Shown here: piece after piece, positions 59,511-62,929 of the stretch
Position numbering within the stretch: position 1 is the first letter of the stretch
Layout: every line of letters starts with the position of its first letter
Assembly (NCBI GenBank): GCA_016786615.1
Contig: JAEUVX010000003.1
Span: 156,771-220,770, forward strand
Length of the DNA stretch: 64,000 bases
DNA from: Flavipsychrobacter sp.
Lineage (GTDB): Bacteria > Bacteroidota > Bacteroidia > Chitinophagales > Chitinophagaceae
Direction of reading: 5' to 3'
Notes under the pieces: generated by a model
What the model saw: only the letters and a program-made list of their open reading frames with translations
The model's database searches: none
What the model was told of the DNA's origin: nothing
Translations under genes and position numbers: made by a program

Positions 59511-60527
59511 TTATGCCATTACTAATTCAGGCAACTTACGAGGACTGAAATTTTTCATAGCATCTGCTATCGCCTTTATGTGTGCAGGTGTGGTACCGCA
59601 ACATCCTCCAACAAAATTCACCCATCCCTGATTCGCAAATTCTGCAACGATTGATGCTGTCATTGCCGGAGACTCGTCGTACTCGCCCATTGCATTTGGA
59701 AGGCCTGCATTCGGATAGCAGCTTACATGGCAAGACGCTATCTGTGCCAGTTCCTCTACATACGGGCGCATCTGTGCAGCGCCAAGTGCACAATTCAAAC
59801 CGATGCTCAATGGATTGGCATGCGATACGGAAATATAAAACGCTTCCAGTGTTTGTCCGCTAAGTGTACGACCCGATGCATCCGTAATAGTTCCTGATAT
59901 CATTACAGGCAGGCGGTTGTTGGTATCACGAAAATATTTTTCGGTTGCGTAGATGGCTGCTTTTGCATTTAGCGTATCGAAGATAGTTTCAATCAATAGC
60001 AGATCTGCTCCACCATCAACCATTCCTTTTATGTGCTCATAGTAAGCCTCTGCCACTTCATCAAAAGTAACTGCACGATAACCGGGGTCATTCACATCGG
60101 GTGAAAGCGACAGTGTTTTGTTCATTGGCCCAACAGCACCGGCAACGAATTTTTCTGTGCCAGGATTATCCTTCTTGTATTCCTCAACTGCCTGTTTTGC
60201 AACACGTGCAGCCTCGTAGCTTATTTCGTATGCATATTCCTGCATATCATAATCTGCCAGTGCAACAGCCTGCGCGCTGAAAGTATTGGTTTCAATAATA
60301 TCGGCACCGGCATCCAGATACTGCCTGTGTATTTCTTTAATGATATGCGGCTGTGTAATAACAAGCATATCGTTGTTGCCTTTCACGTCTTTGTGCCAGT
60401 TTTTGAAACGTTCTCCACGATAGTCTTCTTCCTGCAATTTGTAGGTCTGTATCATACTACCCATTGCACCATCTATTATCATTATGCGTTGCGATAGTAT
60501 TTCGCGCAGCTTTTGTTCAGTTGTCAT
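59511..60527 (-). CDS. Homocysteine S-methyltransferase (N-terminal module of cobalamin-type methionine synthase)
   Basis: 338 residues. [17 protein letters not shown], the [15 protein letters not shown] region and the zinc ligands Cys246 (GLNCALG) and Cys309-Cys310 (VGGCCGTTP) are complete. In E. coli MetH this module is the first of four; here it ends at ...RKLPELVMA, so the folate, cobalamin and reactivation parts must be encoded elsewhere. Split MetH is common in Bacteroidota. No second part lies in the window. The start lies just 12 bases from the inverted-repeat element at 60540. Confidence 0.9.
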
Positions 60528-60539
60528 ACATCAAAAATA

Positions 60540-60566
60540 CCCCTAAATCCCCTTTCAGGGGACTTT
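60540..60566. repeat. Left inverted repeat of the DUF559 element
   Basis: 27 bases, CCCCTAAAT then CCCCTTTCAGGGG then ACTTT. It is the reverse complement of 61026-61052 except at the central loop (TTTC against GAAA). Its own middle forms a TCCCCT/AGGGGA hairpin. Confidence 0.8.
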
Positions 60567-60579
60567 TTTGTTATAAATT

Positions 60580-60942
60580 CTATTGATTTGCCATGATGAC
60601 TATTTTATCTATCACTTCTTCAATGTTGTTGAAGACTTCCCCATTTGTTACTCTTAATACTTTCAAGCCCAATTCTGTTAACTCCTTATCTCTGTTTCTG
60701 TCATACTCATATTGTTCGGGAATGTTGTGAACACAGCCGTCTACTTCTATTACAAGTTTTACTTGCGGGCAGAAAAAGTCTGCGATAAAATATAATACCG
60801 GATGCTGCCTTCTAAATCTTAATCCATTCACTTGCTTCTTGGAAATTCTTTCCAATAATACCTTTTCAGCCTCTGTTTCATTTACTCTTAATTCTCTGGC
60901 AAACTTTATTAGTATTGGATTAGCCACGTAATACATTTCCAT
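60580..60942 (-). CDS. DUF559 domain protein, endonuclease-like (PD-(D/E)xK/Vsr-related fold)
   Basis: 120 residues. FARELRVNETEAEKVLLERI, LRFRRQHPV (44-49), YFIADFFCPQVKLVIEVDG and LGLKVLRVTNGEV are the DUF559 plan. Asp55 and Glu66-Val-Asp68 look like the active-site D-(x)n-E-x-D of restriction-like nucleases; the fold is related to Vsr patch-repair enzymes. Its role is unproven. ATG 60942 is used; a second ATG lies two codons on. It is flanked by inverted palindromic repeats, unlike its neighbours, and is the only gene inside them. Confidence 0.85.
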   Translation of the reverse strand: MEMYYVANPILIKFARELRVNETEAEKVLLERISKKQVNGLRFRRQHPVLYFIADFFCPQVKLVIEVDGCVHNIPEQYEYDRNRDKELTELGLKVLRVTNGEVFNNIEEVIDKIVIMANQ

Positions 60943-60974
60943 AGGTAGTAGTGTTCATTTTTCTACAGGAATAA

Positions 60975-61009
60975 AAATAGCCTTTATGATTATATCATAA
61001 AGGCTATTT
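60975..61009. terminator. Strong hairpin, probable typA terminator, inside the DUF559 element
   Basis: AAATAGCCTTTATGAT (60975-60990) pairs perfectly with 60994-61009, a 16-bp stem with a 3-base loop. It lies between the right repeat and the DUF559 start, about 45 bases after the typA stop. Confidence 0.65.
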
Positions 61010-61025
61010 AATATTTAATTCTACT

Positions 61026-61052
61026 AAAGTCCCCTTTCAGGGGATTTAGGGG
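61026..61052. repeat. Right inverted repeat of the DUF559 element
   Basis: AAAGT, then CCCCTTTCAGGGG, then ATTTAGGGG. It mirrors 60540-60566 and abuts the TAA stop of typA at 61053-61055. Confidence 0.8.
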
Positions 61053-62861
61053 TTACGCTTCTGCTTTCAGCATTTTCTGGAAACGAGCACGATCGTTTTC
61101 ATCCAGCATTATTTTACGCAAACGAATGCTTTGAGGTGTTATCTCGATACATTCATCCTGCTGAATGTATTCCATACATTCTTCAAGGCTCATCTGTATT
61201 TTCGGAGCAATGCGGTTGGCATCATCTGTACCACTTGCACGCATGTTTGTCAGTTTCTTAGGTTCTGTTGCGTTTACAATCAGATCTCCCGGTTTAATGT
61301 GTTCACCGATGATTTGACCAGAGTAAACTTCTTCACCTGCATCGATAAAGAATGAACCCCTATCCTGCAGTTTATCCATAGAATAACCTGTAGTAGTTGC
61401 AGTGTTCTTAGACAACAGCACACCATTGCTACGACCAGGTATTGGTCCTTTCCATGGTTTGTACTCGCTGAAGCGGTGCGCCATTACAGCCTCACCTGCA
61501 GTTGCAGTCAGCATGTTAGAACGCAGACCTATCAAACCACGAGATGGGATATCGAACTCAAGGTGTTGCATTTCGCCCTTACTTTCCATAATCAGCATTT
61601 CGCCCTTACGTTGTGTTACAAGGTCTATCACTTTACCACTGAACTCACCCGGTACGTCTACAACCAATGTTTCATATGGTTCACATTTCTTACCGTCTAT
61701 TTCTTTAGTGATAACCTGCGGCTGACCAACCGTCAACTCAAAACCTTCGCGACGCATTGTTTCTATCAATACAGACAAGTGAAGGATACCACGTCCATAC
61801 ACCAGGAATTTATCCGCATCATCCGTATCCTGTACACGCAGTGCAAGATTTTTCTCCAGTTCTTTATAGAGACGATCACGAATGTTACGGCTGGTTACGA
61901 ATTTACCTTCGCGACCAAAGAATGGAGAGTTATTGATGCTGAACTGCATGTTCATTGTCGGCTCATCTATAGGAATAACCGGTAATGCTTCAGGCGTTTC
62001 AAAATCTGCAACTGTTTCACCAATCTGGAAACCTTCAATACCTACGATAGCACAAATGTCGCCTGCAGATACTTCAGTTACCCTTTTCTTGCCCATACCT
62101 TCAAACGTGTACAGTTCTTTGATGCGGCCTTTTGCAAAACTGCCATCAAGCTTACACAATTGTATTGGTTGGTTTTCTTTAAGTGTTCCACGTGTCACTT
62201 TACCAATTGCAATACGACCGAGGAATGAAGAATAGTCCAAAGAAGTGATTTGCATCTGTACTGTACCTTCTGATACTTTAGGTTCCGGTACTTTTTCAAG
62301 TATTGTATCCAACAGCGGAGTGATATCTTCTGTAGGAGTCAGTGATGTATTGAACCAGCCTTGTTTTGAAGAACCATAGATAGTAGTAAAGTTCAGTTGT
62401 TCTTCTGTTGCATCCAGTTGGAAGAACAGTTCGAATACCGCATCGTGTACTTCATCAGGGCGACAGTTTGGTTTATCAACCTTGTTGATAACAACTATCG
62501 GACGCAGATTCAGTTGCAGTGCTTTTTGCAGTACGAAACGTGTTTGCGGCATAGGGCCTTCAAAAGCATCTACCAACAACAATACACCGTCAGCCATTTT
62601 CAATACACGTTCTACCTCACCGCCAAAGTCAGAGTGACCCGGAGTATCGATAACGTTAATCTTAACGTCTTTATAATTTACTGAAATGTTTTTACTCAGG
62701 ATGGTGATACCACGTTCACGTTCCAGGTCGTTGCTATCCATTATCAATTCACCGGTTTCCTGGTTATCGCGGAATACCTTAGTGGCGTGGATGATTTTGT
62801 CAACCAGTGTAGTCTTACCGTGGTCAACGTGTGCGATGATCGCTATGTTACGAATATTCAT
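61053..62861 (-). CDS. typA: Ribosome-binding GTPase TypA/BipA
   Basis: 602 residues from ATG 62861 (MNIRNIAIIAHVDHGKTT). G1 AHVDHGKTT, switch I RGITILSKN, G3 DTPGHSDF, G4 NKVDK and the typical domains II, III and V are present, with the C-terminal RLRKIMLDENDRARFQKML. E. coli BipA is 607 residues. It binds the ribosome and helps 50S assembly and stress adaptation. A TTG at 62882 could add seven codons but is less likely. The stop touches the DUF559 repeat. Confidence 0.96.
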   Translation of the reverse strand: MNIRNIAIIAHVDHGKTTLVDKIIHATKVFRDNQETGELIMDSNDLERERGITILSKNISVNYKDVKINVIDTPGHSDFGGEVERVLKMADGVLLLVDAFEGPMPQTRFVLQKALQLNLRPIVVINKVDKPNCRPDEVHDAVFELFFQLDATEEQLNFTTIYGSSKQGWFNTSLTPTEDITPLLDTILEKVPEPKVSEGTVQMQITSLDYSSFLGRIAIGKVTRGTLKENQPIQLCKLDGSFAKGRIKELYTFEGMGKKRVTEVSAGDICAIVGIEGFQIGETVADFETPEALPVIPIDEPTMNMQFSINNSPFFGREGKFVTSRNIRDRLYKELEKNLALRVQDTDDADKFLVYGRGILHLSVLIETMRREGFELTVGQPQVITKEIDGKKCEPYETLVVDVPGEFSGKVIDLVTQRKGEMLIMESKGEMQHLEFDIPSRGLIGLRSNMLTATAGEAVMAHRFSEYKPWKGPIPGRSNGVLLSKNTATTTGYSMDKLQDRGSFFIDAGEEVYSGQIIGEHIKPGDLIVNATEPKKLTNMRASGTDDANRIAPKIQMSLEECMEYIQQDECIEITPQSIRLRKIMLDENDRARFQKMLKAEA

Positions 62862-62929
62862 AATCTGTGCCTCTGTTAACAAATAACCCTTCCATATCTT
62901 TAAATAAGGAAGGGCCTCATTTTGCCGCG

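Follow-up and report, generated by a model that had tools for sequence, protein, structure and literature searches.

The window, the whole stretch of 64,000 nucleotides analysed here, belongs to the draft genome of Flavipsychrobacter sp. (G000; 2.96 Mb, 15 contigs, 91% complete). A gene for a DUF559 (PF04480) Vsr-like nuclease of 120 amino acids (60580–60942, minus strand) was recognised from Pfam, residue conservation and PDB matches. It is flanked by typA (61053–62882, minus strand), which is in the ORF list and has orthologues in the genus, and by a listed ORF (59511–60527, minus strand) found after typA in relatives, which from its sequence we take to be the N-terminal part of a metH-like gene. 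The metH-side palindromic end (60540–60566, minus strand; inverted repeat I1, 27-mer search) is a hairpin with an outward CCCCTAAAT tail. The typA-side end (61026–61052, plus strand; inverted repeat I1) lies directly after the typA stop codon, with its tail towards typA. Both ends are 27 bp long and are reverse complements save for three loop positions; a search that allowed up to three mismatches found the 27-mer in none of 100 dinucleotide-shuffled versions of the window. Folded as single-stranded DNA, they formed modest hairpins (−5.2 to −7.5 kcal/mol, z −1.2 to −2.9). One border of the interval is the typA stop codon, and 12 bases separate the other from the ATG at 60527. No ORF of at least 80 amino acids besides DUF559 is listed between the ends, so that there is no transposase gene. 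On all of these points (a DUF559 gene within inverted ends whose mismatches are confined to the loop, a hairpin at each end, the two borders, and no transposase) the preliminary description of the locus was accurate. A copy of the metH-side end was likewise found beside the metH start in the related genome G007.

A further element, absent from the preliminary description, is a strong hairpin with a 16-bp stem and a T run (60975–61009, minus strand), enclosed by both ends. A hairpin of ATAGCC..GGCTAT type stands at the equivalent place in several relatives and, by its position and this comparison, the window hairpin is probably the terminator of typA. The metH-side end also gave terminator-like scores. 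The search of positions 60400–61200 against Rfam returned one sub-threshold match only (28 bits, gathering cut-off 59).

The window protein matched the Pfam model of DUF559 with an E-value of 6.2e-31 and 106.9 bits (gathering cut-off 20.6). Residues of catalytic type are E26, D55, E66, D68, H72 and D81. Conservation was counted, and the domain tree inferred, on 137 domains, one of the 138 collected being left out; E26, D55, H72 and D81 were invariant, E66 was kept in 136/137 and D68 in 135/137. All six were kept in the 47 copies (47/47) located in frame within longer proteins. At two conserved positions the window protein deviates, with L30 in place of W (135/137) and V98 in place of F (125/137). 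Purifying selection was detected in 12/12 pairs of DUF559 genes, with pN (0.04–0.21) well under pS (0.30–0.93, many values being saturated). A profile of eight DUF559 sequences matched PDB entries 3hrl, ‘Endonuclease-Like Protein’ (E 1.9e-33), and 3r3p, ‘Mobile intron protein’ (E 1.3e-4), which we take to be I-Bth0305I; as a single query the window protein matched 3hrl and gave no match to 3r3p at E ≤ 1. A single-sequence AlphaFold model was too poor for use (mean pLDDT 56). The Pfam and 3r3p profile matches support in kind the nuclease fold related to Vsr that had been proposed, and from its sequence the protein appears to group with the Vsr-like and EDxHD-type nucleases, among which there are homing enzymes.

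The half-motif of the ends, AGGGGANTTAGGGG, is dispersed. G000 holds nine copies, two within the ends of the unit and seven away from DUF559, of which this genome has a single gene. The reversed motif, used as control, gave no match in G000 and two over all 15 genomes of the genus. The half-motif was detected in 11/15 of these genomes, and G004 has ten copies yet no DUF559. Loop letters vary among 39 distinct copies in genus loci; the orientation of the loop, once considered a possible strand-specific signal, is ordinary variation. The 5′ arm reads AAGTCCYY in 29/39 copies, which puts a G.T wobble adjacent to the core stem. The target of Vsr is a T:G mismatch, and the wobble is, speculatively, reminiscent of it.

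The tail type of the window-type copies read is TTTAGGGG. In 15/39 of them a convergent ORF has its stop codon 0–8 nt from the tail, in 8/39 this distance is 22–59 nt, and in 16/39 no such ORF is found within 60 nt. Such positions, together with the terminator-like scores of the metH-side end, would suit an ordinary arrangement, with DUF559 serving the host as a repair nuclease and the hairpins acting as terminators of transcription or as 3′ elements of mRNAs. In the same sense, the available text of PMC12907096 describes Caulobacter VsrA, a protein with the same DUF559 (PF04480) domain, as a lone Vsr-like nuclease linked to a DNA damage response and predicted to be a mismatch-repair endonuclease; that text mentions neither palindromic ends nor in-gene units (‘palindrom’ has 0 occurrences). 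An arrangement of this kind is very improbable, given copies that lie in frame within coding genes and are bordered on each side by palindromes, the existence of empty sites, and a patchy presence of PF04480, in at least 102/247 genomes of the phylum at E ≤ 1e-15.

Window-type palindromes were also observed around another gene. In G004 (L254:1483–2682) an inverted pair encloses an ORF (ATG at 1558, stop at 2614–2616) that starts MAKVTYLLGAGASYNALP and has no significant Pfam match, presumably SIR2-like. Two unlike palindromes in inverted order make up a MITE-like family (about 130 bp; L016, L261–L269) that has whole or partial copies in G000, G002, G006, G007 and G009, and copies adjoin the DUF559 genes of G006 and G009. 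Gene-less inverted-repeat copies at several genomic places, the mark of MITEs, were found for this family; the finding refers to the genus family, not to the window unit.

Borders of REP-like or MITE-like nature may be moved by another enzyme, for example a RAYT (Y1 transposase), with DUF559 as one cargo among others. The other gene within the same ends in G004 and the common MITE-like copies without DUF559 agree with this, as do the Y1_Tnp genes present in 10/15 genus genomes (20 places). The exact window half-motif was found within 1.5 kb of none of the 10 Y1_Tnp loci examined out of these 20, and five of the ten (L228, L229, L231, L232 and L233) have their own, different inverted palindromes. 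RAYT was rejected as owner of the window palindromes on the ten places examined of the 20, and transport by another enzyme is quite improbable in view of these loci and of the enrichment around DUF559 described below.

Orthologues of typA were present in 14/15 genus genomes, including G000; identity was 86–99% in 13/14 of the other genomes, the best match of G001 being merely 38%. The junction was readable, with metH at most 1.5 kb after typA, in 11/14 genomes, ten located computationally and that of G003 by eye. The window junction has both ends and DUF559. Those of G004, G009, G011 and G012 (4/11) have the inverted pair around the terminator and no DUF559, the pair being partly degenerate in G004, G011 and G012. 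In G007 a degenerate typA-side copy is accompanied by two metH-side copies in direct order. Neither window-type ends nor DUF559 were present in G002, G006, G013, G003 and G005 (5/11), the last with other content. A possible DUF559 remnant in the junction spacer of G007 was discarded as weak, since equal scores were reached in 83/2000 shuffles and by 7/1622 window pieces. In the tree of typA and MiaB, G000 grouped with G009, G002 and G006 (inner support low), followed by G007 and then by G004.

These states indicate that at typA–metH the ends were there before the gene or remain after its loss, and the bare junctions of G002 and G006 that the place is fluid. The proposal of the 513 bp as one clean element finds no support at this locus, because relatives have both ends without the gene and because the putative typA terminator lies inside. 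Taken alone, the window copy is a weak case for a mobile unit, as junctions exist with the inverted pair and no DUF559, or with neither, and as that terminator is part of the ‘unit’. The locus is probably a worn or composite example of a wider class, for which the survey of flanks given next makes a strong case.

PF04480 was present in 32/59 relatives, and a single-query scan of the genome contigs returned two DUF559 loci. For the survey of flanks, 138 distinct DUF559 domains were taken from the best matches of E-value lists plus 80 stretches, so that the sample is biased to good DUF559 matches. Ten with less than 300 bp on one side were dropped, and 128 were tested for an inverted alignment score between flanks of at least 14. 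This threshold was reached by 84/128, compared with 5/128 cross-locus pairs and 5/125 comparisons of farther flanks. Among other ORFs of the same loci it was reached by 4/189 (Fisher p 2e-38). DUF559 genes are flanked about 30 times as often as these, which speaks against borders owned by another enzyme. Within the window, 2/100 ORFs reached the threshold, one being DUF559 itself. Comparison in direct orientation was also high (68/128), as expected if both ends are palindromes. The remaining 44/128, including 10/20 of the genus of the window, were below the threshold, some of them with one-sided palindromes.

Flanked copies were found among stand-alone genes (50/80) and long frames (30/44), and in the phylum sample (58/85) as well as in the genus (10/20). 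At least one flanked DUF559 was present in 62/83 genomes, and the first DUF559 per genome was flanked in 54/83. Among the 31 genomes with two or more DUF559 genes, the own ends of a unit matched each other better than any end of another unit of that genome in 59/74, scores of at least 14 being obtained for 49/74 own pairs and 27/132 cross-unit pairs. The units have a common end plan of tail, spacer and hairpin, in which the tail may point outward or inward; in some of them a single end consists of an inverted pair. Between families, the similarity of the palindromes follows that of the DUF559 domains (rho 0.21, with 0/2000 permutations as high), a correlation in which shared ancestry remains included. 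The search of phages gave two distant DUF559 matches only.

The protein search of plasmids returned 39 records with DUF559, of which 10 were examined, from Cyanobacteriota, Deinococcota and Pseudomonadota, three phyla other than that of the window (Bacteroidota). Seven of the ten copies (L244, L245, L249, L250, L251, L252 and L253) have palindromic pairs by score. L246 (score 12.5) was paired by eye only, and L247 and L248 have one-sided palindromes; the score of 14.0 of L247 was not counted as a pair, the match not being palindromic. The cyanobacterial copies L244 and L245 have the form CCCCTAAATCCCC...GGGGACTT in common with the window. With these seven plasmid copies and the 84/128 of the survey, matched inverted ends at other DUF559 genes, a question raised by the preliminary description, were found repeatedly. 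In plasmids of Sphingomonas and Deinococcus (L251, L252), DUF559 units were observed within operons, where they separate sufB from sufC and paaD from paaZ.

According to their frames, 83 of the 138 DUF559 were stand-alone, 47 were located in frames of at least 230 amino acids, and eight were intermediate. The host was named by NCBIfam in 37/46 long frames: LeuS (10), MetH (4), HsdR (4), IcmF (3), MiaB (2), RecG (2) and AroC, with RecB-like (2), HsdM-like (2) and PglX-like (2) under the curated cut-offs. End fusions of DUF559 were found with HemE, PurQ-like, HutG-like, RNase HI and HemF. The fusion in L103, with a helicase, is of a different kind, L020 matched a hypothetical-protein model only, and the DUF559 model was the sole NCBIfam match in L085, L106, L107, L109, L133, L141 and L166. 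The edges of the inserts are frequently translated palindromes. No splicing family appeared among the NCBIfam matches at E ≤ 1e-15 of the 46 long frames.

MiaB is interrupted, in a variable loop, in G005 and G011 (2/15), and uninterrupted in 13/15 genus genomes. In G012 (L198), the sister of G011, the MiaB loop reads TSSGEG at the position where G011 has its insert; this loop is unusual and may be a scar of loss. For LeuS, 30 of 59 loci were examined; site 1 was occupied in 2/30 (G026, G027) and site 2 in 2/30 (G021, G027). The other LeuS loops, of 12–17 and 27–35 amino acids, showed no translated palindrome, G031 remaining unparsed at site 2. The empty sites of both MiaB and LeuS are without palindrome. 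No target duplication was seen at the few sites compared (MiaB, LeuS, the G002 comparisons and the palindrome sites). Neither a clean insertion nor a clean empty site was obtained for the DUF559 locus of G002 against G000, G009, G007 and G004, and no clean empty site for a MITE copy of G002 against G006, G000 and G009, or for two palindrome sites compared in G009, G002 and G000. In close-strain comparisons the content differed or the copies were shared, and no fresh movement was seen.

In a quick tree of the 137 domains, made with no shuffled control, stand-alone and in-frame states required 14 changes. Five labelled host types required six changes against a minimum of four, so that copies sharing a host gene are often relatives, a pattern that vertical descent fits too. 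Close relatives in different hosts were L009 (LeuS) and L006 (AroC; SH-aLRT 87), L146 (IcmF) and L162 and L173 (LeuS; SH-aLRT 93), and L134 (RecB-like) and three LeuS copies (SH-aLRT 93). The host pattern is compatible both with jumps between genes and with long residence at a site.

An alternative based on homing only was considered, in which DUF559 would cut palindromes of the genome, or conserved sites, and repair would copy its gene into them, the palindromes having spread otherwise. It accords with the similarity to a mobile-intron nuclease, with the DUF559 gene placed in the EDxHD homing family in the available text of PMC9403480, with the palindromes lacking the gene at typA–metH, and with the relatedness of copies that share a host gene, as in MetH, MiaB and RecG. 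This alternative is unlikely, in that the empty MiaB and LeuS sites are free of palindromes and most units own a matched end pair; taken together, these two observations suggest that ends and gene usually arrive together.

Several known systems share features with these units. The EDxHD family is described in the available text of PMC3943268, where the enzyme is phage-derived and has extra DNA-binding regions. Likeness to these homing endonucleases (I-Bth0305I) is given by the profile similarity to 3r3p and the conserved acidic and histidine residues; in contrast, a bare domain of about 110 amino acids with palindromic ends is found here and no splicing element was seen. As in REP/RAYT (TnpA-REP) systems and REPINs, short hairpins tailed at one end are dispersed, single or in inverted pairs, some beside a nuclease gene. 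RAYTs, however, are HUH (Y1) enzymes, whereas here the partner is a Vsr-like nuclease, and in place of the GTAG or CGTC tag, which is absent, the window-type copies bear their own tail type. The small gene-less inverted pairs in several genus genomes resemble MITEs, but neither a parent transposase nor a target duplication was identified. In difference from an insertion sequence or transposon, the window unit has no transposase gene, and no target duplication was seen at the few sites compared. We know of no nuclease gene in Rickettsia palindromic elements. These elements, reported in frame within ORFs in the available text of PMC3733652, are similar in that palindromes lie in frame inside ORFs, but here a complete nuclease domain is translated within the host protein. 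No description of DUF559 with palindromic ends was found in the open-licence PMC literature; support for novelty is weak, the search being confined to such papers, with most subscription journals outside it.

The best explanation, and a probable one, is a class of small mobile units composed of a DUF559 nuclease gene and inverted palindromes of tail, spacer and hairpin, settled between genes or in frame, of which the window contains one example. Matched ends, enrichment, empty sites, many host genes, conserved catalytic residues and purifying selection are its observed features. Against it stand the 44/128 unflanked copies, the gene-less ends at the window junction, the other gene in G004 and the lack of target duplication at the sites compared. 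Thus the self-standing element of the preliminary description finds support as a class, in the recurrent matched ends across phyla and the empty orthologous sites, but not in the 513 bp of the window.

In the proposed mechanism, the palindromes would be the end signals of the DUF559 unit, and the nuclease would drive its spread through cuts made in the DNA, either at palindromes or in the empty site, after which repair of the break would copy the unit; it may thus act on its own hairpins. Units free of stop codons would settle in frame inside proteins, no intron or intein having been seen to remove them. Gene-less palindromes (single REP-like copies, and REPIN-like or MITE-like pairs such as the 130-bp family) may be non-autonomous relatives. 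At the window junction both ends were probably present first, and the gene would have arrived, or survived, between them.

In kind the class stands close to homing endonuclease genes on one side and to REP-like palindromes on the other, and it is possibly more than that. A broader view, in which a multi-phylum class pairs a Vsr-like nuclease with cognate hairpins in the role that HUH transposases have for REPs, and lives translated, unspliced and stop-free in essential proteins as a homing element without intron or intein, is somewhat doubtful and is put forward tentatively. Related units between and inside working genes of other bacteria suggest a little-noticed kind of mobile DNA. If the proposal is true, a large family of ‘unknown function’ would acquire a role, a group of GC-rich palindromic repeats of several phyla would have an owner, and nuclease units would be entering essential genes without a splicing device. 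It would also make directly testable the origin of the odd in-frame inserts of LeuS, MetH, MiaB and RecG.
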